Position numbers and translations under genes: made by a program. From Bacteroidales bacterium (GTDB lineage Bacteria > Bacteroidota > Bacteroidia > Bacteroidales > P3), in NCBI GenBank assembly GCA_017449975.1, contig JAFSYK010000021.1, forward strand, positions 1-64,000: a DNA stretch of 64,000 nucleotides, given 5' to 3'. Under the pieces are notes generated by a model. The model saw only the letters and a program-made list of their open reading frames with translations, did not search any database and was not told the DNA's origin. This document shows positions 1,798 to 63,058 of this stretch, one piece after another; within the stretch, counting starts at the first letter, position 1; the number at the start of each line of letters is the position of its first letter.

Positions 1798-1852
1798 TGT
1801 CTTAACTACTTAACTACTATCTACTTAACTACTGTCTACTTAACTACTGTTT
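1798..1852. repeat. TTAACTAC short tandem array
   Basis: It alternates units TTAACTAC and TNTCTAC over about 50 bp and ends at the stop codon (1852-1854) of the di-haem oxidoreductase gene. Same family as 3435-3469, 21917-21936 and 62254-62290. Confidence 0.85.
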
Positions 1853-3432
1853 TAAATTGCATTGATAAACTTCACCACAGCGTCGCGGTCGGCTTTGCTG
1901 AGCTGGCGGAATTTTTCCACGCTCCAGCGGGCGTCGCTCTGGCCGCCCTCACGCGAGCAGCCGTGCCACATGATGGCTTCGATGACGTTGCGGGCGCGGC
2001 AGTCGTGCAGACGGTCGGCATGGCCGGAGCAGATGGGAGCCAGGCCGCGTCCCCACAGCGGGGTGGTGCGGCACCAACCGGTGCGGATGTCGTTCTTCAT
2101 GAAGAGGCGGTGCTGCACCATGTCGGTGTAGGGCCATATCTTCTGGTGCGGATAGCGCGGCAGGCGCACGTCGCCGTCGGAGAAGAAACCGTTGGGGTCG
2201 GTGAAACGGTCGTCGCCGGTCTCCCAGCTGGGACGGTGGCATGCGGTGCAACCAATCTCGCGGAACAGCTTGCGGCCACGCTGCACGGTGGCGTCGCTGA
2301 GGTTACGTGCGGCAGGCACGGCCAATCCACGGTGCCAAACCATGAAGTTGACATAATCCTGGTCACTCATCTCGACGGGCAACTCGGTGCTGGTGAGGTA
2401 GTTGTAGATATCCTGCTGCACGTTGCCTGTTTTGTTCCACTCAGGGAAGTACTGGTAGAACTGGGCCTGCACATCGGGGTCTTGCGAGGCGGCGGTGGCG
2501 TAGATGGAGGGGTCGAGGCTGAGGTAGTGCTTGCGGCGGTCGCTGCGGGTGACGTTGGTGATGTTCCAGATTGCGTTGGCACCGGCGGCATCCTGCAAGG
2601 GACCGCGGCTGAGGGCGTAGGTGAAACGCTTGGGATGGGTGGTGTTGCCGTAGAGCGACGCCCAGTCGCCGCCTGCCCAGATGGCGGGATTGAGGGTGGC
2701 TCCGGCCTCCTGCTCACGCTGGTACTGCGCCTTCAGCGAGTCGTCGGGGATGGCGTCGAGCAGCCCCGTGCCGTAGATGCCAATGGTGCTTTCGAGGCGG
2801 AAAGCCAGTTGGCCGTAGGGCGTGGAGAGCGGGGCATAGAAGGCATCCTCGGGGATGGTCACCTCGGGATAGATAAGGTCGTAGGTCTCGCCGTCGGGGA
2901 AGGTGTTGTTCCAGTCGTCGGTGTAGGGCAGCCAGGCGATGTTGATTTTGCTCTCATCGATGGAGGGCTTGAAGGGCGCCACCGCCTTGGTTTGCGGCAT
3001 GCCGGCCACGGAGCTCTCGTAGGCATTGGTGGCGCTGTTGTACACCACCAGTAGGTAGCCGTTACCCCAGTCGTCGGCGCGGTAACGCTCCATGCGGCGG
3101 CCATGGCCGTAGCCGGGGTGACAACTCTCGCAACTAGAGCGCACATAGAGAGGTCCGAGGCCGTTGAAGGGCGGGTTGTTCTGCGTGACGGTGTGCTCGA
3201 AGAACATCTCTCCGTATTTGAAAGCGTTGACCATACCGGCGTTCTCAACGGCGGGCGTGGGATCTTCGTAGGCCGATGCGCTTTGGTTGAAGGTGGTGCC
3301 CAGAAGGCCACCGGCGTAGGTCTCTTCGTCGATACCAGGCTGCGGTTGCGGTGTCGGCTCCTCTTCGCGGTTGCAGGCGGCGAAACTTATCGTCAGTGCA
3401 ACAGCTGTAATAAATAACGTTGTCTTTTTCAT
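1852..3432 (-). CDS. Di-haem oxidoreductase lipoprotein (thiol oxidoreductase, DUF1111 family)
   Basis: This 526-residue lipoprotein has a signal peptide and lipobox ISFAAC with Cys20. Two c-type haem motifs are visible: CESCH at 101-105 and CTACH near 396. The C-terminal part (TTPLWGRGLAP, then a helix with IMWHG and DAVVKFINAI) follows the DUF1111 family, which resembles di-haem cytochrome c peroxidase (MauG-like). It is the third gene of an operon after a porin and an imelysin lipoprotein, 35 bp downstream of the latter. That association is typical of iron-uptake loci, so a periplasmic redox role in iron handling is likely. The substrate is unknown. Confidence 0.88.
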   Translation of the reverse strand: MKKTTLFITAVALTISFAACNREEEPTPQPQPGIDEETYAGGLLGTTFNQSASAYEDPTPAVENAGMVNAFKYGEMFFEHTVTQNNPPFNGLGPLYVRSSCESCHPGYGHGRRMERYRADDWGNGYLLVVYNSATNAYESSVAGMPQTKAVAPFKPSIDESKINIAWLPYTDDWNNTFPDGETYDLIYPEVTIPEDAFYAPLSTPYGQLAFRLESTIGIYGTGLLDAIPDDSLKAQYQREQEAGATLNPAIWAGGDWASLYGNTTHPKRFTYALSRGPLQDAAGANAIWNITNVTRSDRRKHYLSLDPSIYATAASQDPDVQAQFYQYFPEWNKTGNVQQDIYNYLTSTELPVEMSDQDYVNFMVWHRGLAVPAARNLSDATVQRGRKLFREIGCTACHRPSWETGDDRFTDPNGFFSDGDVRLPRYPHQKIWPYTDMVQHRLFMKNDIRTGWCRTTPLWGRGLAPICSGHADRLHDCRARNVIEAIMWHGCSREGGQSDARWSVEKFRQLSKADRDAVVKFINAI

Positions 3433-3434
3433 TT

Positions 3435-3469
3435 GTCTTAACTACTTAACTTCTGTCTACTTAACTACT
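3435..3469. repeat. TTAACTAC short tandem array at imelysin stop
   Basis: Units TTAACTAC, TTAACTTC, TGTCTAC and TTAACTAC fill the gap between imelysin and di-haem genes and contribute to the imelysin stop codon at 3468-3470. Confidence 0.8.
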
Positions 3470-4622
3470 AATTATTACGTATTGCATCAATTGCCTCGCC
3501 GAGGGCATCGCTCAGTGCGGCACAGGCTTCAACAGCCTCACCGTTGACGGCCTCGCTGTAATGCAGGGCGAAGGGAGCGGGCATGGCGTCGATTTTGGCA
3601 AGCGCGTTGTCGATGGCGGCCAACACTTGGCTGTCCAAACCGGCGTTGAGGCTCTTCAAATAACTGTGCAGTGATTTGCCCTCGTCGCGCTGACCCTCGA
3701 TGCCACCCATATAGGCATTTTGGATGCTGATGATGTTGTTGCGGAAGTCGGTGATGGACATATAGCTGTAGGGCGACTCGATATAGGTGACGTCCTCGCC
3801 GTGCCAGGCGGCGTAGATTTTGCTGCTGCCCACCTCGTCGGCGATGTCGGAACAACCCTGCAGGATGGCCATCAAGGCAGCGGCACGAGTGCCGTAGGTG
3901 CTGCCAGCCACACCAGCGTTCTTCAGGTTCTCGCCATAGCTGTAGTTGCCACCGGCCACGGTGTACGGCATCTCCAAGTCGTCGAGTTTCTCGATATGCG
4001 CAGCGGGAGCAGCATCGCCGAGCCAACCCACCTCGAGCTGATAGCAGCGGTTGCGCAGGTCGCCAGCCACCGCCACCACATATCTCCACTGGTCGGCGGT
4101 GATATCGTTGGCACTGCGGGGCTGGCCGTTGCGGAACAATATGTACTCAATGCCGTGGAATCCCAGCAGGGCGTTGCCTAGTCGCTCGCCGGCCACCACG
4201 TCGCCTTTCTCAGCGTCGAGGGCTTCCAGCATGGCGGGGCTGTTCATCAGAGTGTTGAAGGCATCCTCATCGAGAGGCCAGCTGTCGATGTGGGGGTCGA
4301 TGCCGAAGTCGCCGGCAGCACCGAAGAGGAAGGCTTCGCTCTTCTCCCACTGTTCGCGGGCGGCGAGGAAAGTCTCGCAGGCCTGCTGCACACCGGCGTC
4401 CGTGGGGTTGGCCTTGAGGGCGGCCAGCTGGTTGGCCAGCGCCTCGGTGTTGGCGGCCAGCGCCGTGTAGGTGGGAGACACCGTGTGCTCCACAAACTGT
4501 TCGACAATGGCTTGCGCCTGCAGGTCGTCATCTACGACATCGTTGTTGTTCTCTTTCTCGCACGAAGCGAGTGTCAGGGTGGCCATCAGCGCCACCGCCA
4601 AAGTTCTGAATAAATGCTTCAT
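3468..4622 (-). CDS. Imelysin-family (peptidase M75 / IrpA-like) lipoprotein
   Basis: This protein of 384 residues starts at the ATG at 4622 (MKHLFRTLAVALM), which gives a signal peptide with lipobox LTLASC; an upstream ATG at 4643 would only add seven polar residues. The imelysin signature GxHxxE is seen as FHGIEYILF, and an N-terminal helix pair FVEHTVSPTY is typical of the family. Imelysins are surface or periplasmic proteins tied to iron acquisition; the family name suggests a peptidase but most members have not been shown to cleave peptides. It lies 44 bp after the porin gene and before the di-haem gene, so the three probably act together. Confidence 0.88.
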   Translation of the reverse strand: MKHLFRTLAVALMATLTLASCEKENNNDVVDDDLQAQAIVEQFVEHTVSPTYTALAANTEALANQLAALKANPTDAGVQQACETFLAAREQWEKSEAFLFGAAGDFGIDPHIDSWPLDEDAFNTLMNSPAMLEALDAEKGDVVAGERLGNALLGFHGIEYILFRNGQPRSANDITADQWRYVVAVAGDLRNRCYQLEVGWLGDAAPAAHIEKLDDLEMPYTVAGGNYSYGENLKNAGVAGSTYGTRAAALMAILQGCSDIADEVGSSKIYAAWHGEDVTYIESPYSYMSITDFRNNIISIQNAYMGGIEGQRDEGKSLHSYLKSLNAGLDSQVLAAIDNALAKIDAMPAPFALHYSEAVNGEAVEACAALSDALGEAIDAIRNN

Positions 4623-4643: not shown

Positions 4644-4672
4644 GTCTATAACCTATAACCCATAACCTATTT
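4644..4672. repeat. CTATAACC short tandem array at porin stop
   Basis: Units CTATAAC, CTATAAC, CCATAAC and CTAT run across the gap between porin and imelysin genes, and the porin stop (CTA at 4667-4669, read as TAG) lies inside the array. Confidence 0.75.
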
Positions 4673-5989
4673 CTTAAAGAATCCCGCCCAGGTCACCCCT
4701 ATGGCGCAATAGGGCTCATTGTTGTACTGGCTGGCCAACAGTCGCACGCCGCCTTCGACCTTGATGGCGATTTCGGGCAGCGGATAGTAGTTCACTCCCG
4801 CGCTCACCACCTGCCGTTCGGCCCACTCCACATCGGCCCACCCGTCGGCGGGGACGAAACTGTCGTAGTGGTCGTAACGTCCGAAGAGCCAGAGTTTGGA
4901 TTGTTTGATTGTCGGATTGTTTGATTGTTTGAATATCTGGAGCAAATCAACCCCAGCTTCAATCGAAGCGTCCCAGGCATTCTCGCCCACAGCGGTGTGA
5001 GGGTAGGGGTTGCCGGTCATCGTCGTCTGGTTCTTGTTGCGGGTGCTGATAAGGCTGGCATCGCCCAGATGGCCGTAATCCACATTTCCACGAACCACCA
5101 GCCAACGGTTCTTATAGGCAAAGTCGAAACATCCTATCATCAGGGTTCCTGTGGCGCCGTGGTAGCGCGAGGTTTCGGGATACACCGTCGTCGTGATGTC
5201 ATTGTTGAAGGTGTTGCCCACATAGCCACTCAAGCTCAGTCGCAGGCCTTTCACGCCCGACCAGTCGACACGTGCGGCACCAGCGAGGCTGTTGGCCGGA
5301 CGGAACTCGTAGGGCGAGGCACTCCCGTTGTGCACCCATCCAGCATCGTTGAAGAGGTTGCTGTTAAGCGCCGGCAGCAGCTGCACCTCGTAGCGCCAGC
5401 TGCCCGCTTTGCCCCACAGGCTCACGCCCGTCTCGTGCCAGGTGCAGGGCATGATGGTGTTCTCGCCTTCGGGGCGGTAGAGACCGAAGAACTGCGTGGG
5501 CAGGTGGTTGCTGTTGGTCATTCCCACCGGCACCACTATATGTCCCGCGCGCACATTCAGATATTTATTGAAGCTTTTCTGCACCCAGAACTGCTCCAAC
5601 GCCACCTCGCCACCGCGTTCAATCTCCTGCTCGAACTCGCCCGTCTCCTCCGTCTCCTTCTCCACGGCGGCTTCTATGCCACCGTGCTCGAACTCAATCT
5701 CCGTGCCGATGCTCCATCCGTGCCCGAAGTCGTAACCCAGCATGATGACGGCGTGCGGCAAGTCGAGCCGCGAATAGGAGGGAGCGTCCTTGTAGCGGTC
5801 GGCATGCGAGTAGCGGAACACATTGTCCGAATAGAAATGGCGACTGAACACCGCCTCGCCGTAGCCACCGATAGTGAGTCGCGAGGTGCTGTCTTTCGCC
5901 GTCTTTTGCTCGTTTTGCGCAGAAAGAGCAGGGGCAAACAACATCATCCATGCGGTGCAAATAGCAATAAAACAATCTTTTATATCCAT
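4667..5989 (-). CDS. Outer-membrane porin-like beta-barrel protein of iron locus
   Basis: This 440-residue protein begins with a Sec signal peptide (MMLFAPALSAQ). The body has the alternating pattern of an outer-membrane beta-barrel, for example RLTIGGYGEAVFSRHF, VIMLGYDFGHGWSIGTEIEFEH and FWVQKSFNKYLNVRAGHIVVP. It ends IGVTWAGFFKK with an aromatic near the terminus. It is the first gene of the operon with imelysin and the di-haem protein, so it could be the outer-membrane route for the locus. An odd stretch at residues about 352-365 (FKQSNNPTIKQSK) is encoded by a short tandem repeat. Which solute it passes cannot be told. Confidence 0.75.
   Translation of the reverse strand: MDIKDCFIAICTAWMMLFAPALSAQNEQKTAKDSTSRLTIGGYGEAVFSRHFYSDNVFRYSHADRYKDAPSYSRLDLPHAVIMLGYDFGHGWSIGTEIEFEHGGIEAAVEKETEETGEFEQEIERGGEVALEQFWVQKSFNKYLNVRAGHIVVPVGMTNSNHLPTQFFGLYRPEGENTIMPCTWHETGVSLWGKAGSWRYEVQLLPALNSNLFNDAGWVHNGSASPYEFRPANSLAGAARVDWSGVKGLRLSLSGYVGNTFNNDITTTVYPETSRYHGATGTLMIGCFDFAYKNRWLVVRGNVDYGHLGDASLISTRNKNQTTMTGNPYPHTAVGENAWDASIEAGVDLLQIFKQSNNPTIKQSKLWLFGRYDHYDSFVPADGWADVEWAERQVVSAGVNYYPLPEIAIKVEGGVRLLASQYNNEPYCAIGVTWAGFFKK
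4896..4934. repeat. In-frame TTGTTTGA tandem array inside porin gene
   Basis: Four units close to TTGTTTGA (39 bp) encode FKQSNNPTIKQSK on the minus strand. The composition differs sharply from the GC-rich flanks. Confidence 0.75.
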
Positions 5990-7035: not shown

Positions 7036-7092
7036 GACTTATTGGACCAATTGGACCAATTGGACCTATTAGTCTTATAGGAGCTATAGGAC
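7036..7092. repeat. TTATTGGAC-type short tandem array
   Basis: Nine-bp units such as ATTGGACCA repeat and then change to CTATTAGTC and TTATAGGAG. It adjoins the GC-rich array, whose own blocks contain the related stretch ATTGGACTAATTGG. Confidence 0.75.
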
Positions 7093-7111: not shown

Positions 7112-8527
7112 CTAGAACCTCCAATCAGCATCCCTGCTCATGGAAACCTCCAGAATCCGCTGGGTGGCGGCGGTGACGGCATAGCGGCCGTCGGCACGAC
7201 GGCCTGCAACCCAGAGGATGGTGTCTTCGGCGTCGCAGAGCAGCCACTGGCTTTCGCGCTCGTGTAACGGCAGCTTCAGGTCGGAGAAGAAGTCGCTGAG
7301 GAGACGTGTGCCTTGCATGCCGAAGGGCTGGAAGCGGTCACCCGGTCGCGGATGACGCCAGTGCAACGGCTGTCGCAGCAGGTCGGCGTCGAAGAGCGCA
7401 CGGTCGGCAGTGGTGCGAAACGAGCCATGCTGCTGCAGATACTCTTCCCTACCCCACTCCTTCATCTGGCAGGGCGGCTGCGAGGCTGACGCCTCGCGCT
7501 GCAACGGCGCAACGACCAGCGTCGCACGTTCCCGCACCAGGCGGTGTGTGGGACTGTAGAAACAGCGGCCCGAGGTGCTGTCGAGTGCATCCTGTATGTC
7601 GGTCGTTTGGGCGGCGTTGAAGCCATAGGGACGCAGCAGTTCGAAGAGCCAGCTGCGCAAGGGATGCAACGACCGCAGCGCGTCAATGTCCATCTCGTCG
7701 TAACCGTCGCGGTGGGTCACCACACGCGCACGGACCTCCGCGAGGGCTTGGCGGTAGATGACATCGGTGTCGGCCAGATGTCGCATGGTATCAACTATCG
7801 CCTTGTCAGCACCCGGCACGATGTCGCGCAGCAGCGGCATCAGCTGATGTCGGATGCGGTTGCGACGGTATTCCAGCGAACAGTTGGTGACATCCTCCAC
7901 ATGCTCCAGACCCTGTGCTTCGGCATACGCCACAATCTCCTCGCGCGAGAAGGGTAGCAGAGGATGTGCCACCTGGATGGCGGGGTCGGTGTCGGTCATC
8001 ACAGTGACGGCACGCATGCCTGCCAGACCCGTGATGCCGGTGCCACGCAGCAGGTTGAGAAAGAAGGTCTCTATGCTGTCGTCGCGGTGATGCGCGGTGA
8101 GAACGAGGGCGTTCGTTGAGTCGTTGAACTGTTGAGTTGTTGAATTGTTGAGTTGTTGAATTGTTGAGTTGTTGCTGGGGTTGGGGTTGGAGGAATCAAT
8201 TATTTGGGCGAAGAAGTGGTAACGCAGCTTGCGGGCGGCCATCTCGATTGAGAGGCCGTTCTCGGCGGCGTAGCGGTGCGTGTCGAACTGGGCGACATGA
8301 CAAGCCACGCCGTAGCGTTCGGCCAGCTGGCGCACAAACTGTTCGTCGCGGTCGCTGTCGGCACCCCGCAAATGGAAGTTACAATGGGCAACCTCGTAGC
8401 GGTGGCCCGACTCCTGCATCAGATGGCAGAGCACCACGGAATCAATGCCCCCACTCACTGCCACAAGCAGGTGGGTGGAGGCATTGAACAATTGAGAATT
8501 GAAATCCCTGAATTCTGAAAGATTCAA
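7112..8527 (-). CDS. tilS: tRNA(Ile)-lysidine synthase
   Basis: This 471-residue protein of the N-type ATP pyrophosphatase family converts C34 of the tRNA-Ile CAU anticodon to lysidine with ATP and lysine, allowing AUA decoding; it is essential in most bacteria. The PP-loop SGGIDS lies at residues 25-30 and a second motif LTAHHRDDSIETFFLNLLRG follows near 142-160. The C-terminal TilS domains (WRHPRPGDRFQPFG and RLLSDFFSDLKLP) are present. Residues about 112-138 (NPSNNSTIQQLNN and onward) are an Asn/Gln/Ser/Thr-rich insertion encoded by an 8-bp tandem repeat before the LTAHH strand. It lies 20 bp downstream of the giant T9SS gene on the same strand. Confidence 0.95.
   Translation of the reverse strand: MNLSEFRDFNSQLFNASTHLLVAVSGGIDSVVLCHLMQESGHRYEVAHCNFHLRGADSDRDEQFVRQLAERYGVACHVAQFDTHRYAAENGLSIEMAARKLRYHFFAQIIDSSNPNPSNNSTIQQLNNSTTQQFNDSTNALVLTAHHRDDSIETFFLNLLRGTGITGLAGMRAVTVMTDTDPAIQVAHPLLPFSREEIVAYAEAQGLEHVEDVTNCSLEYRRNRIRHQLMPLLRDIVPGADKAIVDTMRHLADTDVIYRQALAEVRARVVTHRDGYDEMDIDALRSLHPLRSWLFELLRPYGFNAAQTTDIQDALDSTSGRCFYSPTHRLVRERATLVVAPLQREASASQPPCQMKEWGREEYLQQHGSFRTTADRALFDADLLRQPLHWRHPRPGDRFQPFGMQGTRLLSDFFSDLKLPLHERESQWLLCDAEDTILWVAGRRADGRYAVTAATQRILEVSMSRDADWRF
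8114..8192. repeat. In-frame GTTGAATT tandem array inside tilS
   Basis: About eight units alternating GTTGAGTT and GTTGAATT, followed by a GGGGTTGG tail, 79 bp in all. It encodes a low-complexity loop in TilS between the first helical region and the LTAHH strand. Confidence 0.85.
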
Positions 8528-8547: not shown

Positions 8548-11500
8548 TTAGCGTACAATCATCTTGCGCATCAGACGGTGTCCGTCGCACTCGATGCCGT
8601 AGAAATAGACACCGGCCGGCAGCTGCATCTCCGTCGTGGTGATAGGCCAGGTGGTGCGTCCCGCCTCACAGTGCTGCTGGCGCTGATAGCAGAGGTGACC
8701 CATGGCGTCGATGATAAAGAGACGCACATTGGCAGGCTGCGGGATGGAGAACGACACCCTCGTCATCTCGCCGAAGGGGTTGGGGTAGTTCTGCTCCAGC
8801 ACATACTCGTCCTGCTCGGTGACCGTCGGGACACCCTCGAAGCTGTTCAACACCACGATCCACGACGTCTGGTTGTTGTCGGGGTTGGCATCGATCGTCG
8901 ACGAGAAGGTGCCGATGCCCTCGTAGGTGCGGGTGCTGCTCTTGGGCACGGTGGCTTCGAACTCGAGGTCGTAGATCATACCCGGTATAAGAGTACGGCT
9001 GCCCAAGGTGGTGAGCGCTGTACCGTTGATGACGGCATCGAGCGCGTACTGTCCTTGGTGGGCAAAGTTACCGATGTTCTCCAGGCGCATACGCACACGG
9101 CAGTTCTCGTTCATATTCTCCTCAACAAGCAGTTTATCAACCTGGATGTCGACATACGGCTCGACGATGGACGACGTGGTGTCGTTGCGACGGTCGGCAT
9201 CGTCGGCGATGGAGACATAGGCGGTAATCTGATCATAGGGTTGCTGACGCTGCGGCAGCTGGTTGGCAAAGACGATGTAGCCCGCGCTGAGCGCGTTGAG
9301 GGTACCTTCGTAAATCTGGTTTACCAGTGTCGCAGGATCGTTATCGTAGTAGTAGCCTATCTCGAAGGAGGTGACGGCACGCGATCCCAGGTTCTCCACC
9401 GTGAGCTGTACACGACGGCCGTTGACGATAATCTCCTTGGCCTTGAGGTCGGTGATGGCATAGATGCCTTCGACACGCATGGAGATGGTATCGTTGAAGC
9501 GGTAGGAGTCGTCCTCCAGGTCGCTGTAGGCCTTGATAGAGAGGGCACCCAGGTTGACCTGGTAGCGCTGACCGACGGTGTAGTTGAAGTACTCCATCGA
9601 GAAGAGCGGACGACCCATAAGGGCGACGAAGTCGATGGTGTCGACGATAAGGGTGTTGTTGATTGACACCGCTATCGGCAGGCTGGAAATCATGCCGTAG
9701 CCGTTGTTGCGCAGACGCAGGGTGACCGTCACCGAGTCGCCAGCCATCACGCGGCTGTTCGGGGTGAGGAAGGCCGTCATTGCGACGTCACGTTCGAGCG
9801 GCAGCATCGTATAGGAGATGCAGGCGGTATCGTTGTCGTGGTAGAGGTCGCTGGAGCTACGCGTGAAGGCGCAGATCTCAAACACCTCGGGATAGTTGTT
9901 GGTAACGGTGAAGGCGCTGGCGTCGGAGAAGGTGAAGGAGGCGGTGCCGCCGTTGGGAGGTATGGCACCGGTGAAGACCTCCTCGCGCGGCAGGTAGTCT
10001 CCATAGGAGCGGAATGCCACGGGCACCGACCGCAGCGTGTCGTAGCCGTAGTTGATGAGCGTCACCGTCAGCGTCGAACGGGCACCCAATGCCAGCTCCG
10101 TAGGAGCGGTGATCTCGAGCACACCCGCGTCGACGGCGCGCTGGGCACGACGGATGGCGAAATTGTCAAACGAACAACCGTCGCCAAACGAGGCGGTGGC
10201 ATTGGCTACCGGCGTGTAGTAGACCAGACGGAACTGCAGCAGCGGCGGGAAGTTCTCGATGAGATGCGACGTCGGCACACAGTAGAACTTATAACTATAG
10301 TTATCGCTGACGCCGGTGAAGCCCTCTTCGCTGTTGTACCATTCGATGCCACTGATGGTATCGAAACGGGTCCAGACACCGTGTGAGTTGCGGTATTCGA
10401 TGACCATGTGGCTGCCCTCGCCCAAGTCGCGTGCCAGGTAGAACGACAGCGAGTCGGTACGGATCTGCGACACGTCGATATAGGGCGAGTAGAGCATGCT
10501 CAACGTACCACGACGGCCGGTGCGCACCGAAGAGCCAATCTCAGTGGTCCAAGCCCTGGGGTTGGAGTGGGCACCGCGGAGGTGTATCTTGGAGGGATAA
10601 CCCACATGCCAGTAGTTATAGTTGTATTCGTTGTTGCCCGAAGGAGCATACCAGTAGTTCGGACCGTCGAAGTCGTCCTGGAACGTCAGCTGACGGACAT
10701 GGAAACGGTGGAACTCGTAGCGCAGCGTGTCGTTGTCGTGACGCACGTCGCCCGTGGCGCGTACCACTATCGTCAGGTCGGTGGTGCCGGGGTTGAAGGT
10801 GTAGTCGGGCAGCGTGACATAGGCCGACATGCCCGAGGAGAGGACACCCACCCACGGCATGGTGCCAGTGACGGTGGTGCTGTCGAAACGATTGTAGAAG
10901 GTGTAGTCGATGTTGGCGGCGCGGAGCTCGGTGGCACCCTTGTTGACCATCACGAAGCCGACGTTCCGCAAGTTGGCGTCGACCTCATGGTCATGGGCTG
11001 TCACCATACGGGCCGGCGCCAGATCGACCGTGGGCAGGTCGCGCTCGACAAACAGCAGCCAGTCGACGATGTTGCCGTGGTCGATGTTGTTGCAGGGCAG
11101 GTTCGTCGCCACCGTGGTGTCTTGATTCAGGATGAAGCGTGCCTTCATAAAGCCGCAGTGGACCGAAGCCGGGACTACCATCGGCAGACGCAACGTCTGG
11201 TTGGCACGGATCATCGTGTCGCACACGCGCTCCACATGGTTCGTGTCGTAGATGGTGTCGTTGTTGACAATCCTTCTTCTCGAGTAGAAGCTACCATTGC
11301 GGTCGTAGTCGACATAGACGGTCAGTCGCGCCATTGTCTCGTTGTCGCTGAGGTCCTCGCTGTTGGCACAGGAGACAATCAGCGTGTCGACCATGCCATG
11401 GGGCAGCGTAATGACACCCGTGGTGGGATTGTCGTAGGCGGACATATCGATATAGCCACGTCCGACCGGCGGCATCTCCCAATCGATATTGTTGATACTG

Positions 11501-14500
11501 ATACGGGTGATATCCATGCCGTCGTTGTTGGCCACCGATGTTGCACAGTAGGTGTTCTCGGCAAGGGTGGAGAAGGCATACGGGGTGGTCACCGTATCGT
11601 TCTGGCGCACCATCTCCGTGGGCAGGTCAGTCCAAGCCTCGACACGGTAGTTGCGGGCCGTGTTAAAGTAGTTGGTGGGTATCTGCAGCAACGAAGTGAA
11701 GGCGTAGTCCACCGTCTCGTCGGGTTGCAGCGTGCCGTTGTAGACCTCATTGACCAGCGATATCTGGTTGTAGTTGCTACCCTCACGGATGGAGAAACGG
11801 TAGGTCACCGGGATATTGCTGACAGGCTGGTTGGAATAGTTGATGATGCGTACCGTCACGGTGTCGCGCTCGACGTACACCTGACCCGTCGCCGGCGAGA
11901 GAATGGCGATGGCCGCCACATCGTTTTCGACACGGGGATTCAGGTAGACATGAATCGGCGAGTACGAACTCGGACAACCCTCGGCACTGACGCAGTTGAG
12001 GTAGTAGACCGTGTCGCGGAAATAACGCGGAGCGTAGTTCCAGTGCGTGGAGTTGGTATAGGTTGTCGGGTTGTAGAACGGCGACTGGGTCGAGTCACGG
12101 TACCAGCTGATGGGGAACTGGTTGACCTGCGAAGCCCACAGCACATCGGTCGTGGCGTAAGGGATGTGCAGGTCGACGCCGGCAGGCGGCTGCGGGTTGT
12201 AGTTGGACTGCTTGGAGATATAGACCGTCGTGTCGTTGGAAGGCACCAGGTCATACTCGTAATGCACCCAAGCGCGGTACTTGACCGAGATATTCGATTC
12301 CAGACCCGTCGGATAGAGGTTGGCCGGGGTGGTGAAGCTCACCGACTGCGATCCGCTCACCGGCAAGGCGGTGGGCAGGTTGATGAACTCCTCATGCCAG
12401 ATGGGCAGGTTGGGCACCGTCACACCCGGCGTGTTCAATATCACCTGGTAGCCGATGGTCAGCTGCATGGAGGGTGTGATGGGCTTGCGACCCGTATTCT
12501 TCAGGGTAAGGGTGATGGTGGCGTTCTGCAGGTTGCAGCCCGTGGCAGGAGAACCCTGCGACACCGAAGCCATGTAGGCCTGGATGTTGAAAGCGGGATA
12601 GACGTAGAAGCGCGACGAAGCCTCGTTGTTGTCCGGATTGAGGTCGCCCGGCAGGCTGAGGTGCACCACCACCGTCTGGGTGTCGATGACACCGATAGGC
12701 ATAATAATATAGGTGGTGTCAGTCACCATGCCCTGTGTCGGGATGACCGTCACGGTCTCAGTGGGCGAGACGGCGCCGGTGACACCCGTCACATCGGCAT
12801 ACCACGTCACGTTGCGCTCGGAGGAGGAGCCGTTGTTGTAGAAGCTGGCCACAACCATAATGGTGTCGCCCTCGACGATATTGTCGGTCAGCACCGGATG
12901 GCTGATGGCAGCCACCGACACGTCGTGAGCCGGCATGGGATATTCGTGGGCACCGATGGTTGGCGGCGGAATCTGCGTACGCGTGGTACCGTCGATATCC
13001 TCGGGGATATCGAGGTTGTAGTGTGCCAGACCCGAGAGGTTACTGGTGGTCATGTGCAGGTCATCGGCAGCCACGAAATAGGGCTGCAGGTTGTGCGAGG
13101 AGGCATCGGTCTGGTTGGCCAGACGCAACGCCACCAGCGAGTTGGCCTCGCCGTTCCAGTAGGCCAGACGGGTGGTTGCAGTGGTGGTGTTCGAGTAGTA
13201 GTTGTTGTAGTCGGAGATAACCACGGTGGCACCCGGCGTCACAAAGTAGGCATAGCCGCCGGTGAAGTTCGAGAAGATATTGTTGCTCACATAGAGGTCG
13301 CGTGCGGTGGCACCCGCCATGAAGGCAGCCGTCGTGTTGCGGTTGTCGGAGGTGGCGAGACGCAGCGTGTTGAAGTAGACCTCGATGAAGCGCGACGAAT
13401 CGGTGGAGGCGTCGTCGATGGTGATACAGGTGGAGACCACCGTCGAACCGGTGCTGGCACCCACGTTGCCGGAACCCGACACCGACACCATGTTGTTATG
13501 CAGCAACACCTTGTCGAGCGACTGGCTGGCACCGCGACAGGACTTGAGAAGGATACCCGTCTTACCACCGTTCTGGAGGTCGGAAAGGACCACGTTGTTC
13601 TTGCTGATGACCAGCGCACCGACGGAGTTGGCGACGCTGATACCCGTCAGCGGGCGACGGGCGACACTCATGCCCGAGCGCACGGTACAGCGCTCGATGG
13701 TGAACTGATAGACACCCGACAGGTCGACACCCTTCGTGGTGAAGTTGGTGAGACGACAGCTGTCGAATTGCACCTGACGGCTGGAACCCGCCGAGACGCC
13801 GGTGCTCTTGATGGAGTAGTAGCCGCTGTCGAGGAGACAGCCCGTGAAGTAGAGTCCGTTGACGCCACTGCCCAGCGCCACACACGAGGCGTTGGCGTTG
13901 TCGGCGGTGTTTTTGACACGGAGTGTCGCACCCTCGAAACGGATATTCGAAGCGTTGGCAACGGAGACCACATTATTGAAATTGCCCGTTGCGGTGGATT
14001 TCATCGTCACATACTCGAAGCGGATATGCGCCGCGCTGTCGGCCAACTTGACCACATAGTTGTTGGCGTTGGTGGGAGCGGCGGTGATCAAAACATCGGA
14101 CGCCATACCCGTCGACGAGCGGAACGTAATCGTGTTCTGAGCCGACGCACCCTCGATGCGTGCCAGCTGGACCTGTCCTTCATAGGTGTCCGGTTCCACC
14201 AGGAAGCGCACCGGTCCGGCGACGCCGACCGAGTTCAGCGTGTCAATGGCCTCGAGAATCGTGGCATAGGTACCCGTGGAGCCAATCGTGTAGTCGCCGC
14301 CACAGAAACGCACCTGCGCCACCATCTGGATGGTATCGTTGGTCGGAATCAGGTCGCCCGTGGCATTGACCACGACGGTGATGAGGTGACGACCCGGCGT
14401 CATAGGCTGCATGGTGAAGGGCACGCTGACACGGCCACCGGTGGCGATGCTGCCCGAGGTGGCGATGTTCTGCCAGGCACCGTCGTCGACACGGTAGTGC

Positions 14501-21916: not shown

Positions 21917-21936
21917 TCTTAACTACTTAACCACTA
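21917..21936. repeat. TTAACTAC short tandem array at hutI stop
   Basis: Two and a half units (CTTAACTACTTAACCACTA). The last CTA gives the TAG stop of hutI at 21934-21936. Same family as 1798-1852. Confidence 0.65.
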
Positions 21937-44526: not shown

Positions 44527-44548
44527 ACCCTCAAACCATCCAACCTCC
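44499..44548. repeat. AAACCATCA/AAACCCTCC array at the 3' end of 44146 gene
   Basis: Degenerate units (AAACCATC, AAACCCTCC, ACCCATT, AAACCCTC, AAACCATCC) span the stop codon of the small secreted gene and end at the dnaE ATG. Confidence 0.75.
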
Positions 44549-50627: not shown

Positions 50628-50664
50628 GTAAAATTCGAAATTCAAAATTCAAAATTCAAAATTA
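50628..50664. repeat. AATTCAAA octamer array after ddl
   Basis: Units AATTCGAA, ATTCAAA(A) repeat four times and end in AATTATTT next to the -7 box of the following lipoprotein. Confidence 0.8.
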
Positions 50665-51674: not shown

Positions 51675-54600
51675 TTACCGTTTTACAACCCGGCGGAGCA
51701 CCGCGCCTTCGGGCATGGTGATGCGGAGGGTGTAGGTACCGTCGGCAAGAGCCGACAGGTCGATGGTGTTGGTGTGCTCATAGACAGCCACGCAGCGGCC
51801 CACCAAATCGAGCACCTCGACGCGGTCCGCCTCGGTAACATTGATCTGCACATTACCTGTCGTCGGGTTCGGGTAGACCTTCACTGCATTGAGCAGGGAG
51901 AGCTGCGGCTCGCTGCCGCCCTTCCCGGTGATGGTGAGGTACAGCGTAACGATGCTGTCGCAGCCGTACTGGTTGGTCGTCAGACGTGACACCACCGCCG
52001 AACTGGTGAAGGTGATGCCATACCAGGTGAAGCTGCCGGTGGCGGTGGCCACCGTGTCGCCCGTCGTTGCAGAGGACACGGTCAACGTCAGCGTGTCACG
52101 GATGGGACAGCCGTCGGCGGCGGTGCTTTTGTAGAATTTGTTGCCACTCTTGTTGTAGGTCTGGCCCGTCTTGTCCCACGTGTAAGGACCGCAACTGGTG
52201 ATGTACTCATGGCTGCTCCAACGGTCGACGATAGTCAAGCTCAGCGTATCGCGGATGGGACAGCCCTCGGGCGTAGTGCTTTTGTTGAACTTCAACCCAC
52301 CCTTGTTATAGGATTTGCCGGTGAGATCCCAGGTATAGGGGCCACAGTTGGTGACCTCGGTGAAACTGTGCTGGCTGCTGGCGATAGTCAGCACCAATGT
52401 GTCGCGGATGGGGCAGCCATCCTCAGCGGTGCCTTTGTAGGTCTTAATGCCCGACTTGTTGTAGGTCTGGCCGGTCTTGTACCACGTGTAAGGCGCGTCG
52501 CAGCTGGTGACTTGCTCGCGGCTGCTCCAGCGGTCGACGACGGTGAGCGTCAACGTGTCGCGGATGGGGCAACCCTCGTCGGAGGTACCCTTGTAGTACT
52601 TGTTGCCGCTCTTGTTGTAGGTCTTGCCGGTGCGCTCCCAAGTGTAGGGGCCACAGTTGGTGACATACTCGTGGCTGCTGAGGCGGTCGACAATGGTCAG
52701 CGTCAGCGTGTCGCGGATAAGGCAGCCGTCCTCGTCGGTCTCCTTGTTGAACTTGTCTCCGCTCTTGTTGTAGGTCTTGCCGTTGACATCCCAGGTGTAG
52801 GGACCGCAACTGGTGACGTACACGTGGCTGCTCCAGCGCTCGACAATGGTCAGCGTCAGCGTGTCGCGGACGGGACAGCCTTCGGGCGTGGTGGCCTTAT
52901 GGTACTTGTTGCCGCTCTGGCTGTAGGTCTGTCCGGTCAGCTCCCATGTGAATGCGCCGCAGCTGGTGACATACTCGTGGCTGCTGATGTGGTCGACCAC
53001 CTTCAACGTCAGCGTGTCGCGGATGGGACAGCCGTTGTCGTCGGTGGCGCGGTAAAATTTGTTGCCACTCTTGTTGTACGTCTTGCCCGTCAGATCCCAC
53101 GTATAGGAGCCGCAGTGGGTAACATAGGTGTGGCTGTGCCGTCCGGTGGAGATGGTCAGTTCCAACGTGTCGCGGATAGGACAGCCATCGGCGGCGGTAC
53201 CTTTATAAAACTTCAATCCCGACTTGTTATAGGTCTGGCCGGTCTTGTCCCACGTGTAAGGCTCGCAGCGGGTGACGCGCTCATAGCTGCTCCAGCGGTC
53301 GACGATGGTGAGTTCCAGCGTGTCGCGAATGGGACAGCCCTCAGGCGTGGTACCCTTGTTGAACTTCAGACCCGACTTGTTGTAGGTCTGTCCGGTAAGT
53401 TCCCAGGTATAGGGACCGCAGTGGGTGACATAGGTATGACTGCGTTGACTGGCGACAACGCTCATCGTCAGTTCGTTGGACCAAGCGCTGTCGGCTGGTG
53501 CGCAGGGGTTGTCGACCTTCACCTTGGCACGGATAACATCGCCCTCCTGTATGTTTTTGATGGACACGCTATCGCCCGTCAGACCCGGCAGCAGCTCGCC
53601 GTTGCGGTACCACAGGTACTGCGGGTAGTAGTCCTCGGCCCGCTGTGTGGTAGCCACAAAAACCGCCGCCGTGCCTTCGCACACCGAGGTGTTGTCAGTG
53701 CTGATGCTGACAGCCGGTGCCTGTGTGCTGCGCACGATGACGGTGCGGCTGTAGGTGTTGCGGCATTCGGTGACGTTGCTGATGCCCAGCGTGAGGGTGT
53801 AGGTGCCGGGCTGGCTCAGCGAGAAAGTGATGTTGCCCTGCGTGGTGAGGTCGTCCTCGCCGTCGCCCTGCAGATCCCACCAGTAGTAGGTCTGCGCCGA
53901 TGTGCCTTGACTTTGGTCGAGCACCGCTATCTCGTCGCCCGGACAGACATGGTCGCCATCGGGCAGCGCAAACTGCGGCTCGGGACCGATGCAGTAGACC
54001 TGGGTATAGGTGGGGCTCCACATGGCGCCAGCGCGGGCACGGATGCAGAGTGTGTGCTCGCCGTCGGTAGTGGGGACAGGGATATCGTCCATATTCACCA
54101 GTACGGGGCTGTTGGCCGAGAAAGCCACCGGCGTGCCATTGCCGAAGCCTGGGTCCTCATCCCAGTAGTACTCCACCTGTTCCACCTGCTCCAGCTCCTC
54201 CTCGCCCACCATCACGGTGGTCCAATAGGTGGGGCTCCACTGCGTGCCTTCGGCCGTCTTGGCGCGGATGCCCAAGCGGTGGACGCCGTTGCTGACTCCT
54301 TCGGTGGAGAAAGCTGCGTTGTCAATCTGCACAGTGCTGCCCGGCGTGAAGCCTGTCAGGGGGATGCCGTTGCCATAGCCGGGGTCTTCGTCCCAGCAGT
54401 ATTCCATCTGATCCACCAACAGCAGCGCCTCTTCGCCCACCACCACGGTGGTCCAGTAGGTGGGGCTCCACAGCGTGCTGCCCGCCGTCTTGGCGCGGAT
54501 GCCCAAGCGGTGGACGCCGTTGCTCACGCCGGCAGCGGAAAGGGCGCCGTTGTCAATCTGCACGATGCCGCTGGGCGTGAAGCCCGTCAGCGCGGTGCCG

Positions 54601-54956
54601 TGGCCATAGCCGGGGTCGTCGTCGAAATAGTATTCTATGCGTTCCACCACAGCATCCGCCGCGGTGCCCACCACCACGGTGGTCCAATAGGTGGGACTCC
54701 ACAAGCCGACGTAGAGGTTGTTGCGGGCGCGGATGCCGAGACGGTGCACGCCGTCGGCAACACCCGCTATCGACAGGGCGCCGTCAAACTGCACGACGCC
54801 GTTCGACACCGTGAAGCCCGATAGCGTGAAGCCCGCGCCAAAGCCGGGGTCGCCGTCCCAGAAATATTCGACGCGACCCACCGTCTGTCCAGTCGCTGGC
54901 AGCGCAAAGGCAGCCAACAGCAGACAGACTGTTAGACAATGTCGTATAGCATTCAT
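51675..54956 (-). CDS. T9SS-secreted repeat protein (1,093 aa) with nine 51-residue repeats
   Basis: After a signal peptide (LLLAAFALPATGQ) come four repeats of about 75 residues (VEYFWDGDPGFG to WSPTYWTTVVVG), a type common in Bacteroidota surface proteins. A PKD-like module follows (YYWWDLQGDGEDDLTT). Then there are nine nearly identical 51-residue repeats with consensus HEYVTSCGPYTWDKTGQTYN and a GCPIRDTLTLT end, each with two cysteines, plus a tenth degenerate one. The C-terminus (VKVYPNPTTGNVQINV then ADGTYTLRITMPEGAVLRRV) is a type A T9SS sorting domain. It is likely a surface adhesin or matrix protein. The 51-residue array is a likely site of copy-number change. Confidence 0.9.
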   Translation of the reverse strand: MNAIRHCLTVCLLLAAFALPATGQTVGRVEYFWDGDPGFGAGFTLSGFTVSNGVVQFDGALSIAGVADGVHRLGIRARNNLYVGLWSPTYWTTVVVGTAADAVVERIEYYFDDDPGYGHGTALTGFTPSGIVQIDNGALSAAGVSNGVHRLGIRAKTAGSTLWSPTYWTTVVVGEEALLLVDQMEYCWDEDPGYGNGIPLTGFTPGSTVQIDNAAFSTEGVSNGVHRLGIRAKTAEGTQWSPTYWTTVMVGEEELEQVEQVEYYWDEDPGFGNGTPVAFSANSPVLVNMDDIPVPTTDGEHTLCIRARAGAMWSPTYTQVYCIGPEPQFALPDGDHVCPGDEIAVLDQSQGTSAQTYYWWDLQGDGEDDLTTQGNITFSLSQPGTYTLTLGISNVTECRNTYSRTVIVRSTQAPAVSISTDNTSVCEGTAAVFVATTQRAEDYYPQYLWYRNGELLPGLTGDSVSIKNIQEGDVIRAKVKVDNPCAPADSAWSNELTMSVVASQRSHTYVTHCGPYTWELTGQTYNKSGLKFNKGTTPEGCPIRDTLELTIVDRWSSYERVTRCEPYTWDKTGQTYNKSGLKFYKGTAADGCPIRDTLELTISTGRHSHTYVTHCGSYTWDLTGKTYNKSGNKFYRATDDNGCPIRDTLTLKVVDHISSHEYVTSCGAFTWELTGQTYSQSGNKYHKATTPEGCPVRDTLTLTIVERWSSHVYVTSCGPYTWDVNGKTYNKSGDKFNKETDEDGCLIRDTLTLTIVDRLSSHEYVTNCGPYTWERTGKTYNKSGNKYYKGTSDEGCPIRDTLTLTVVDRWSSREQVTSCDAPYTWYKTGQTYNKSGIKTYKGTAEDGCPIRDTLVLTIASSQHSFTEVTNCGPYTWDLTGKSYNKGGLKFNKSTTPEGCPIRDTLSLTIVDRWSSHEYITSCGPYTWDKTGQTYNKSGNKFYKSTAADGCPIRDTLTLTVSSATTGDTVATATGSFTWYGITFTSSAVVSRLTTNQYGCDSIVTLYLTITGKGGSEPQLSLLNAVKVYPNPTTGNVQINVTEADRVEVLDLVGRCVAVYEHTNTIDLSALADGTYTLRITMPEGAVLRRVVKR

Positions 54957-56145: not shown

Positions 56146-56192
56146 ACGTGAATAGTGAATGGAGAATTCGTGAATGGTGAATGGTAAATGGA
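56146..56192. repeat. GTGAATG heptamer array
   Basis: Units GTGAATA, GTGAATG, GAGAATTC, GTGAATG, GTGAATG and GTAAATG make an array of about 47 bp in the gap between the beta-helix gene and the ABC permease. Confidence 0.85.
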
Positions 56193-56205
56193 CAAATGAT
56201 ATGCG

Positions 56206-56254
56206 CTGACTGCTGCTAACCACTAACTGCTAGCTGCTAACTGCTGGCTGCTAA
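56206..56254. repeat. GCTGCTA heptamer array at permease stop
   Basis: Units ACTGCTG, CTAACCA, CTAACTGCTA, GCTGCTA, ACTGCTG and GCTGCTA run up to the stop codon (56255-56257) of the permease. A second repeat family directly next to the GTGAATG array. Confidence 0.85.
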
Positions 56255-57520: not shown

Positions 57521-58307
57521 GGGGGAATTGAGAATTGAGAGTTGAGAATTGAGAATTGAGATTATCCCGCCCATTAGACCCATTAGACCCATTAAACCCA
57601 CTAACCACTAATTCAACAAATATTTCATTGAGTGCGGTTTGTGGAAAATCCTGTTGCAGGGCGTCGAGGGTGCCGTTGAAGCGGAGGCGTGAGTCGTGCA
57701 GGATAGCCAGTCGGTCGCATAGGGTCTCGACAGCAGCGATGTTGTGCGACGAGATAAGTACCGCAGCGCCACGGCTGCGGATCTCCGCCACCACCTCCTG
57801 CAGCAGCAAGGCGTTGAGCGGGTCGAGACCGCTGAAAGGTTCGTCGAGTACCACCAGCTGTGGGTCGTGTAACAGGGCGGCTGCCAGCTGCACCTTCTGT
57901 TGTGTGCCCTTGGAGAGCTGCGACGGCAGTAGCGTAGCCACCTCGGGGATAGCCAGCCGTTGCAACCAAGCCATGGCACGACGCTGCGCCTCGGCAGCGG
58001 TGAGGCCTTTGAGACGGCCCCAAAAACAAAGCTGCTCGTCGACCCGCATGCGGGGATAGAGACCGCGCTCTTCGGGCAGGTAGCCGATGCGACGACAGTC
58101 GTCGGGCGACAGGGCATGGTCAGACCACAGCACCGAGCCGCTGTCGGGCGACAGCATGCCGTTGAGGATACGGATAAGCGTGGTCTTGCCGGCGCCGTTG
58201 AGACCCAGCAAGCCCGTGACGCTGCCGCCGTCGAGTTGCAGCGACACCGTATCGAGCACCTTGTGGGCGCCGAAACTATGGGTAAGCTGGTGGAGATTGA
58301 TTTTCAT
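57492..58307 (-). CDS. ABC transporter ATP-binding protein (NatA-like)
   Basis: This 271-residue ATPase has Walker A GLNGAGKTT at about 35-43, a Q-loop IGYLPEERGLYPRMRV, signature LSKGTQQKVQLAAAL and Walker B LVVLDEPFSGLD. The H-loop ISSHN follows. This is the drug/Na exporter group. The C-terminal 38 residues (VVSGFNGSNGSNGRDNLNSQ and onward) are encoded by two tandem arrays and overlap the start of the permease by 29 bp; the conserved domain appears to end at about FVELV. Confidence 0.9.
   Translation of the reverse strand: MKINLHQLTHSFGAHKVLDTVSLQLDGGSVTGLLGLNGAGKTTLIRILNGMLSPDSGSVLWSDHALSPDDCRRIGYLPEERGLYPRMRVDEQLCFWGRLKGLTAAEAQRRAMAWLQRLAIPEVATLLPSQLSKGTQQKVQLAAALLHDPQLVVLDEPFSGLDPLNALLLQEVVAEIRSRGAAVLISSHNIAAVETLCDRLAILHDSRLRFNGTLDALQQDFPQTALNEIFVELVVSGFNGSNGSNGRDNLNSQFSTLNSQFPHVSLDHPLS
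57524..57612. repeat. Two arrays inside/after the ABC ATPase 3' end
   Basis: 57524-57563 has TTGAGAA heptamers (CTCAATT family on the coding strand); 57569-57612 has CCATTAGA nonamers. Both are read through by the ATPase gene and contribute its C-terminal tail. Confidence 0.85.
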
Positions 58308-58312: not shown

Positions 58313-58365
58313 CTATCGGTCTTATTGGACTTATTGGGCTAATTGGACTAATTAGTCTTATCGCT
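58313..58365. repeat. TTATTGGAC-family array at BatA-like stop
   Basis: Degenerate 9-bp units (TCTTATTGG, ACTTATTGG, GCTAATTGG, ACTAATTAG) fill the gap before the ABC gene and supply the stop of the BatA-like gene at 58348. Confidence 0.85.
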
Positions 58366-60414: not shown

Positions 60415-60420
60415 TGTGAA

Positions 60421-60486
60421 TGGTTAGTGGTTATGGATTAGTGGTTATTGAGTGGTCTTATTGGTCTTATTGGTCTTATTGGCCCC
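60421..60486. repeat. TTATTGGTC nonamer array at nth 3' end
   Basis: TAGTGGTTA-type units and then clean 9-bp TTATTGGTC units. The second half lies inside nth and encodes its C-terminal NKTNKTNKTTQ tail. Confidence 0.9.
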
Positions 60487-62253: not shown

Positions 62254-62290
62254 GCCTTAACTACCTAACTTCTTATCTACTTAACTACTT
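62254..62290. repeat. TTAACTAC array between divergent promoters
   Basis: Units TTAACTACC, TAACTTCT, TATCTAC and TTAACTAC lie between the divergent -7 boxes at 62225-62232 and 62296-62303. Same family as at 1.8, 3.4 and 21.9 kb. Confidence 0.85.
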
Positions 62291-62295
62291 TTTCG

Positions 62296-62303
62296 TATCT
62301 TTG
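62296..62303 (+). promoter_or_regulatory. -7 box TATCTTTG for aroE
   Basis: An exact TAnnTTTG match that ends 5 bp before the aroE ATG at 62309. The expected transcription start would fall at or next to the ATG, so a leaderless mRNA is likely. Confidence 0.55.
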
Positions 62304-62308
62304 TCACC

Positions 62309-63058
62309 ATGATACAGGCAGGACTCATCGGCACCCCGCTGGGACACAGCGCATCGGCGGCATACTTTGCACAGCATCACCCCGACTGTCGCTACCGTGC
62401 CCACGAGATGGCGTCGCTGGAAGGACTGCGTCAGTGGGTGGAGGAGGAACGGCTGGACGGTTTCAACGTCACCATCCCCTACAAGCGGGCCATCATCAAG
62501 CATCTCGACGCGGTGGATGACACCGCACGACGTATTGGTGCGGTGAACTGTGTGCGGGTGCAACGCACGGAGGGTCGCACAATACTGACGGGTTACAACA
62601 CCGACTATCAAGCTTTCGCCGAAACACTGCAGCCCATGCTACAGCCGTGGCACCGGAAGGCGCTGGTGCTGGGCACCGGCGGCGCGGCACAGGCCGTAAG
62701 CTACGCCCTGCAAAAACTGGGCATCGACCACACCTTCGTCAGCCGCACCCCCGAAACGCACCCCAACGCTATCGGCTACGACCAGCTTCCCAGCCTGCTT
62801 CTTCCAACTAACCATTCAACCCTCCAACCCACAATAATTATCAACGCCACCCCCGTGGGGATGTGGCCCAACACGGAAGAGACGCCGATGCCCGATATGC
62901 AAGGCATCGGACCGCAGCACCTCTGCTACGACCTCATCTACAATCCCGAAAAGACCCGCTGGCTACACGAAGCAGCGCAACGCGGAGCCACCACATGCAA
63001 CGGCACCGCCATGCTCCACCGCCAAGCCGACCTAAGTCTCGCGCGATGGAGAGTGTGA
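62309..63058 (+). CDS. aroE: Shikimate dehydrogenase
   Basis: This 249-residue enzyme reduces 3-dehydroshikimate with NADPH. The N-terminal motif AGLIGTPLGHSASAAYF at 4-20, the substrate-binding NVTIPYK at 53-59 (Lys59), NTDY with Asp99, the NADP loop LGTGGAAQAV at 121-130 and INATPVGMWP at 178-187 are present. Residues 166-175 (PTNHSTLQPT) are encoded by a CCAACC-type array directly before the IINATPVGM strand. The family start fits the ATG at 62309, which lies only 5 bp after a -7 box. Confidence 0.95.
   Translation: MIQAGLIGTPLGHSASAAYFAQHHPDCRYRAHEMASLEGLRQWVEEERLDGFNVTIPYKRAIIKHLDAVDDTARRIGAVNCVRVQRTEGRTILTGYNTDYQAFAETLQPMLQPWHRKALVLGTGGAAQAVSYALQKLGIDHTFVSRTPETHPNAIGYDQLPSLLLPTNHSTLQPTIIINATPVGMWPNTEETPMPDMQGIGPQHLCYDLIYNPEKTRWLHEAAQRGATTCNGTAMLHRQADLSLARWRV
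62803..62830. repeat. In-frame CCAACTAACC-type array inside aroE
   Basis: Degenerate units of 7-8 bp (CCAACTAA, CCATTCAA, CCCTCCAA, CCC) encode PTNHSTLQPT, an insertion before the INATPVGM strand. Confidence 0.75.

Follow-up and report, generated by a model that had tools for sequence, protein, structure and literature searches.

In this study, we analysed a 64,000-nt stretch of DNA, referred to as the window (positions 1 to 64,000 of contig JAFSYK010000021.1, assembly GCA_017449975.1), from a Bacteroidales bacterium, together with the short, degenerate tandem arrays of 7–9 bp units that lie between and within its genes. Tandem repeats were found by Tandem Repeats Finder (TRF) at score thresholds of 30 or 40, and periods of 7–9 were counted unless otherwise stated. 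At score 40, the window contains 27 arrays, compared with a mean and a maximum of 0 in 20 second-order Markov simulations; at score 30, it contains 41, compared with a mean of 4.2 and a maximum of 9 in 20 such simulations. For simulated intergenic DNA with matched length and composition, the mean number of arrays was 0.05 and the maximum 1. The scattered short arrays described in the original prediction are thus present in the window, and the random-sequence check proposed there did not find them in matched random sequence.

The arrays are described here by their window coordinates from TRF, with a strand only where one was assigned, and in comparison with the closest genome found (G122), whose dnaE locus is identical to that of the record 'bacterium P3'. 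Several arrays lie within protein-coding genes. A CTCAATT array (44892–44930, plus strand) lies within dnaE, the frame of which stays open and the product of which is 43 residues longer than that of G122; among eight relatives aligned, a similar stretch was found in only one (L067). The reading frame is likewise open across a CTCAATT array in ddl, encoding D-Ala-D-Ala ligase (50047–50086, plus strand), across a GTTGARTT array in tilS (8115–8190, minus strand), where G122 is shorter by 24 residues, and across a CTCAATT-family array in hutI, encoding imidazolonepropionase (22993–23025, minus strand), where G122 is shorter by 7 residues. TRF and protein comparison revealed two arrays in a single GSCFA-family gene, AGTGATC (49259–49288, plus strand) and CTCAATT (49320–49354, plus strand), which together account for 25 extra residues relative to G122. 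An GTTTGATT array (4894–4932) lies within a minus-strand open reading frame (ORF; 4667–5989), a composite of CCCATTAGA and CTCAATT arrays (57525–57600, minus strand) is located at the C-terminus of an ABC-transporter ATPase ORF, and a GTTTAAC array (26519–26563) provides the stop codon (26529–26531) of a plus-strand gene (25254–26531); neither of the last two is present in G122.

Other arrays lie next to start codons or between genes. An CAAACCAT/CAAACCCT array (44500–44545) lies upstream of dnaE (ATG at 44549), an AAATCTAGA 9-mer array (41589–41672) upstream of ettA (ATG at 41684), and an AATCTAGAA 9-mer array (36783–36856) upstream of the ATG at 36872, and none of the three is found in G122. 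An TTGGAGGG array (28559–28601) abuts the ATG of a minus-strand ABC-F gene from upstream, where G122 has 15 unrelated bases, and a CTCAATT array (36448–36468, plus strand) extends into the ATG at 36467. Pairs of minus-strand genes are separated by a CTATAAC array (4646–4670), by an GACCTATAA/19-mer array that is lacking in G122 (23208–23257), and by a composite in which a GTGAATG array is followed by a CTGCTAA array (56148–56254). An AAAATTC array (50630–50663) comes after ddl, and an CTTATTGGA 9-mer array (58321–58361) is not present in G122; in the composite of TGGTTAG and TGGTCTTAT arrays at 60420–60482, only the second array could be placed in G122, and it is absent there.

One family of the window illustrates recurrence at distant sites. 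The original prediction placed TTAACTAC at four loci. Three of these, all CTTAACTA arrays, share an irregular higher-order pattern: one with 8/15-bp periodicity (1801–1850), 4 bp from a minus-strand ATG triplet at which no gene was called; a second (3437–3469) 4 bp before the minus-strand ATG at 3432; and a third full copy (62256–62290) that is not in G122, the site there consisting of 8 unread bases. The fourth site (21918–21931) has only about two units, which is below the TRF threshold, and retains the CATTTGT-CTTAACTACTTAAC start. The array at 62256–62290 is also the last one found in the window; no array of score 30 follows it, whereas the original prediction extends to 62830.

Longer repeats were set apart from the 7–9 bp arrays. 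The segment 6351–7031 is a GC-rich minisatellite with 135-, 150-, and 285-bp units containing GGGCGTACACGGGGGTACGCCC, a palindrome-like sequence that also flanks arrays elsewhere (L088:8060–8300 and 16980–17260); an ATTGGACCA 9-mer array (7041–7070) comes next after it. Long-period repeats at 52080–53432 and 54146–54858 are likewise distinct; a 1093-aa ORF with internal 153-bp and 231-bp repeats occupies 51675–54956. A single 3916-aa ORF on the minus strand spans 8548–20298.

The window's own genome (G000) is a draft of 103 contigs (2.31 Mb), which was sampled first as twenty 20-kb stretches together with the window (464 kb) and then as an enlarged sample of 690.7 kb (30%). The first sample contained 185 arrays of period 6–10, compared with none in a first-order Markov copy, and the GC content of the arrays was 33%, compared with 55% in the surrounding DNA. 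The enlarged sample contained 298 arrays (120 of period 7, 92 of period 8, 83 of period 9, and three of period 10), equivalent to 4.31 per 10 kb and in keeping with the predicted frequency of about one per 2 kb. At score 40, TRF gave no rows with periods below 7 in the 690.7 kb; at score 30, there were 39 rows of short period (35 of period 6, two of period 5, and two of period 3). The modal length of the heptamer arrays is about 30–32 bp. When rotation and strand were disregarded, the score-40 arrays of the enlarged sample fell into 106 unit classes, the commonest being AATTCTC, which is equivalent to CTCAATT (31 arrays), AAAAACT (16), AAAATCTAG (14), and AACCAAT (12); unit families do recur at unlinked loci, as had been noted for the window. 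The units are asymmetric in G and C between strands, 54 of 103 classes being without G or C (expected 36.8, maximum 50 in 1000 draws). These data demonstrate that the 7–9 bp tandem arrays are a non-chance feature of both the window and the sampled genome.

Gene context in the enlarged sample was assigned with a simple codon-based gene caller (508 genes). Of the 298 arrays, 139 lie between codirectional genes, 55 within genes (including some ordinary coding repeats, which were not separated out), 49 over a gene 3′ end, 20 in divergent gaps, 14 in convergent gaps, two over a 5′ end, and 19 at stretch edges. In the first sample, the 93 arrays in codirectional gaps lay between 0 and 1093 bp from the called start, with 18 of them ending within 16 bp of it, and the CTCAATT family within genes was in the TGA-free orientation in 8 out of 8 cases. 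The coding strand was C-rich in 89 and G-rich in 42 arrays of codirectional gaps; this bias was not accepted as a link to transcription, because arrays over gene 3′ ends show the reverse trend (16 C-rich versus 30 G-rich), which is expected if the G-rich orientation supplies stop codons.

An inverted partner (score of at least 24, within 120 bp) was found for 22 of the 298 arrays, compared with 5 and 10 in two controls; the corresponding values were 8 of 57 versus 3 and 3 in the genomes G025 and G106 combined, and 4 of 24 versus 1 and 0 in G073 and G091 combined. Hairpin formation by inverted arrays was rejected as a general rule, since striking cases exist but partners are a minority. Among these cases, perfect inverted arrays (GGGACAGT)3 ... 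(ACTGTCCC)3 flank an element with inner TATATCTA repeats (L196 12192–12356) that is kept in both G025 and G106. Two palindromic elements of about 110–150 bp, with arms made of short tandem repeats, occur in G025 (L198 5926–6080 and 14091–14208), and copies of these elements, spread over many contigs, make up most of the 72 matches in G106.

The sampled density of arrays in G122 is strikingly different: two arrays in 229 kb (0.09 per 10 kb), approximately 50-fold less than in G000. Sixteen of the 27 window arrays, at 14 separate sites, could be placed in G122, and none was present; 11 could not be placed. The placed arrays lacking there include those of dnaE, ddl, and tilS, and the hutI array is likewise lacking by protein alignment; no seed sequence was seen in G122 at these in-gene sites. 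In a dnaE tree of 30 of the 60 same-genus genomes, G000 and G122 are sisters with full support, and have 215 and 4 matches, respectively, to a distribution probe (three CTCAATT copies, up to three mismatches). A second sister pair in the tree comprises G137 (198 matches; 64% complete) and G119 (0 matches; 81% complete), and G097 (0 matches) is nested in an array-bearing group.

At least one probe match, which is a low bar, was found in 55 of 60 genomes of the genus (counts of 0 to 756), in 47 of 101 genomes of a family draw, and in 196 of 393 of an order draw, 39 of the latter having 20 or more matches by hand count. A backward control pattern was also abundant in some genomes; it reads as a heptamer family, TTAACTC, rather than noise, and TTAACTC-type units themselves were seen only in G025 and G106. 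CTCAATT-like arrays are therefore patchy across the order, and array-like matches extend to many families.

Comparison of species pairs revealed that the arrays are not missing from every relative, nor the same in all of them; the original prediction had named either outcome as evidence against it. In the G025/G106 pair (93.6% alike near dnaE and 89% over another 17 kb), 42 of 61 arrays were placed; shared arrays vary in unit number (e.g., 29 versus 43 bp before an ATG), and at several sites an array in one species faces other sequence in the other. In the G073/G091 pair (about 92% alike near dnaE), 23 of 24 arrays were placed, and 4 of the 12 G073 arrays face, by reading, other sequence in G091. 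Apparent replacements of 12 to about 50 bp, without obvious target duplication, were found at four aligned sites. Stretches L036 and L061 have differing arrays in the same gaps, and no arrays were found in the L032/L033 and L050/L071 comparisons. The AACACGAAT array family is an exception with conserved flanks. This family belongs to a dispersed element of about 100 bp resembling a miniature inverted-repeat transposable element (MITE), which lies at 1370–1471 of the window around AACACGAATTGCACGAATAACACGAATA and has roughly inverted ends; it is 100% identical over 102 bp to the copy in L095 and 84–92% identical to others.

Variation within families provides evidence for copying between loci. 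In ten families examined in G000 at TRF score 36, one-base variants concentrate on one or two unit positions and are common to many unlinked arrays. The variant AACTCTC makes up 46 of 82 variant units in the AATTCTC family and occurs in 28 of 58 arrays, AAAAAGT makes up 22 of 33 in the AAAAACT family and occurs in 19 of 25 arrays, and variation in the AAACGTT family is mostly confined to one position. Variants also differ between genomes. In stretches picked for holding matches (from G125, G007, G121, and G120, the array densities of which are consequently unrepresentative), the AATTTTC variant of AATTCTC was present in 12 of the 13 G125 arrays and in none of the 19 from G120 (p = 6e-8), whereas AACTCTC was present in 1 of 13 and 14 of 19, respectively; G000 has both variants, 28 of its 58 AATTCTC arrays holding AACTCTC and 14 holding AATTTTC.

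Order and distance are equally informative. Of 111 pairs of arrays no more than 40 bp apart in G000 (score 30), 45 show a combination, with order and orientation taken into account, that recurs in at least one other pair; in 500 shuffles, the number averaged 6.8 and never exceeded 18. Five of the 45 represent one MITE-like element and eight are same-family pairs, leaving 32 without both; the remaining 66 pairs occur once. One composite, consisting of AAAAACT, GCAGTTAGC, TTAAGATG, and TTCACAAC, recurs at several loci. Same-family pairs exceeded expectation 2.20-fold at 0.3–2 kb, 1.66-fold at 0.3–5 kb, and 1.61-fold at 5–10 kb, falling to 1.05-fold at 10–20 kb and below 1 farther away (400 permutations, 356 arrays). 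The shared variants, their genome specificity, the repeated order, and the clustering within 10 kb favour copying between loci over independent slippage, and support the earlier view that the arrays reflect more than local slippage.

Taking these results together, we consider it close to an even chance that the arrays record copying that is still going on across the genome, by slippage of 7–9 nt combined with template switching among nearby tracts. We infer that other arrays serve as templates and that the copying is done by enzymes of replication or repair and not by a dedicated element. Short low-GC tracts would grow or shrink by whole 7–9 nt units, through slippage or unequal exchange, and pieces of about 30 bp or multi-array composites would be copied elsewhere, preferably within about 10 kb, where a short local sequence would be replaced or interrupted by the copy. 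Such transfer would most likely proceed by microhomology-mediated template switching in replication or repair: a stalled 3′ end may pair with another AT-rich tract, copy a few units and slip, and sometimes switch to a different tract before returning. Such insertions would persist mainly between genes, or in frame in variable parts of proteins. Mismatch repair removes small loops, and the lower limit of the unit might reflect its action. The upper limit might correspond to the length of duplex held by the polymerase, an idea of Mrazek as cited in the available text of PMC4679880. Slippage combined with local switching would yield changes in unit number, switches of unit, replacement without target duplication, copying of variants, and decay with distance.

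Several points weigh against this copying process. No copying event was observed together with its donor, and the density gap between the sister genomes is not accounted for, mutS1 and a Y-family polymerase being present in both. In the G073/G091 pair, several arrays do not differ between the two members, indicating that turnover is not fast everywhere, and the segments replaced in the species pairs may overlay several events. The genome comparison of variants used stretches picked for matches, and not all of its arrays are on separate contigs. Part of the clustering could stem from regions that differ in origin or history within a metagenome-assembled genome (MAG), and cross-contig permutation of labels leaves such mixed-origin regions possible.

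A dedicated enzyme, such as a reverse transcriptase, a transposase, or a terminal or primase-like polymerase working in a 7–9 nt register or from RNA templates in a telomerase-like manner, would fit the sharp 7–9 bp ruler, the G/C asymmetry of the units, the modal heptamer array length, the composites in recurring order, and the large differences between sister genomes. We nevertheless judge it unlikely, given that about 100 unit classes would require many templates, that spread is local, and that the five enzyme families searched do not explain the arrays. Profile searches for RVT_1, Y1_Tnp, mutS1, IMS (Y-family polymerase), and the PolX thumb were each run on the 60 same-genus genomes, 15 of which are array-rich (at least 100 CTCAATT-like matches) and 15 array-poor (at most four). 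RVT_1 had no match in 10 of the 15 rich genomes and was present in 7 of the 15 poor ones, some genomes being incomplete and divergent enzymes possible; Y1_Tnp had no match in 6 of the rich and was present in 10 of the poor, again with some genomes incomplete, and G000 itself has two Y1_Tnp matches. Array counts of carriers and non-carriers of RVT_1 or Y1_Tnp did not differ significantly (Mann–Whitney p 0.16–0.84); in genomes at least 90% complete, Y1_Tnp carriers had a higher median count (43 versus 10, p 0.16). PolX was unmatched in all 60 genomes. The mutS1 profile scored above its cut-off in 55 of 60 (below it in G091, G119, G127, G131, and G140) and IMS was matched in 55 of 60; neither explained the arrays in a comparison of counts by eye only. 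Y1 transposase and reverse transcriptase are thus neither required for arrays nor enough to produce them in the sampled genomes, some of which are incomplete, and the linked enzyme that the original prediction proposed to look for was not found among these five families. A third MutS-like match in G000 (G000:C21:32209–33117) has three in-frame stops. A viral vehicle was also rejected for the CTCAATT unit: its exact four-copy 28-mer occurs in 18 stretches of a viral collection of 2.9 million contigs, too few to point to transport by phages.

The other explanations dispense with a special enzyme. Each array could have been born independently by slippage in situ, certain AT-rich 7–9 mers being prone to it, which agrees with the changes in unit number of shared arrays, with the recurrence of CTCAATT-like units in other families of the order, and with Mrazek's proposal tying 7 nt to polymerase contact (as cited in the available part of PMC4679880); the non-random, genome-specific variants that arrays share, the repeated order of different arrays, the clustering of families, and the lack of a seed at the in-gene sites of G122 make this rather improbable. 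Selection of the arrays as regulatory sites, whether translation leaders, terminators, or protein-binding sites, receives little credence from us. It is consistent with the 139 arrays between codirectional genes and the 18 ending close to a called start, and translational sites have been proposed for the TAACTGA repeats of Beggiatoaceae (PMC4679880, in its available text), but arrays also lie in divergent and convergent gaps and within genes, unrelated arrays face each other at some sites in close species, and the sampled sister genome is nearly devoid of them. An artefact of metagenome assembly is very hard to credit: the window's genome is a 103-contig draft and most named relatives are MAGs, yet the same phenomenon occurs in many separately assembled genomes, separately assembled species have sites in common, and reading frames stay open in conserved genes.

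Given the approximately 50-fold difference in sampled density between sister genomes, comparison of close relatives offers a way to look for the cause. Since arrays extend into DNA polymerase III, D-Ala ligase, and TilS, new protein loops and C-termini also arise from the process. In our view, the genome-specific sharing of variants represents concerted evolution, which is not usually considered for short bacterial repeats. A bolder and doubtful extension is that Bacteroidales possess an undescribed templated DNA-writing activity with a 7–9 nt register, which copies arrays nearby, homogenises them genome-wide by concerted evolution, and is switched on or off between sister species. If true, it would be a bacterial counterpart of the spread of dispersed satellite or telomere-like repeats, remodelling loops of essential proteins.

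Several known systems share features with these arrays. Repetitive extragenic palindromic elements (REP/REPIN) are palindromic units linked to a RAYT (Y1) transposase gene. They resemble the present arrays in being short, dispersed, and intergenic; the present arrays are mostly non-palindromic and tandem, and Y1_Tnp does not track them. Phase-variable contingency repeats mostly have units of 1–5 nt and lie in particular surface genes. Variation in unit number, as between G025 and G106, is common to both, whereas the present units are of 7–9 nt, occur throughout the sampled genome, and include none of 6 nt or less at score 40. Telomerase-like addition is similar in the G/C strand asymmetry of units and differs in that most array-rich genomes, some of them incomplete, lack an RVT_1 match, divergent enzymes being possible. 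Cyanobacteria contain short tandemly repeated repetitive sequences, among which heptamers are prominent. Long simple sequence repeats with an excess of heptanucleotides were described by Mrazek in 2007 (as cited in the available text of PMC4679880), and octamers are reported to be clustered in roughly half of psychrophiles and mesophiles (PMC4060949, in part). All three resemble the present arrays in that short direct repeats are over-represented in scattered bacterial genomes; the ten with the most 5–11 nt repeats come from Burkholderia, cyanobacteria, actinobacteria, and Xanthomonas, and the available part of the source describes no Bacteroidales system.

The closest parallel is the set of TAACTGA heptamer direct repeats reported in marine Beggiatoaceae, some Cyanobacteria, and five Bacteroidetes (MacGregor, 2015; PMC4679880, to which the following statements refer as far as its available text goes). 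The original prediction knew of no named system of this kind in Bacteroidota; heptamer repeats had, in fact, been reported there, and nothing closer was found, no comparable system in Bacteroidales being reported in the open-access literature searched beyond that paper. Other heptamer repeats were noted beside some of the Bacteroidetes sets, and the mechanism was not evident. The TAACTGA repeats are likewise short, direct, mostly intergenic with some in genes, and patchy, and for two Bacteroidetes they are absent from the corresponding site of close relatives. However, the main TAACTGA genome has a single dominant heptamer whose one-base relatives are seldom repeated, whereas here there are 106 classes with common, shared variants; and most of its sets lie within a few nucleotides upstream of a start codon, compared with the 139 of 298 codirectional arrays and the 18 of 93 within 16 bp found here. 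The present arrays further differ in having 7-, 8-, and 9-bp units and genome-specific homogenisation. The many 7–9 bp unit classes, the shared variants, the ordered composites, and the local clustering of families distinguish the present arrays from these heptamer repeats.

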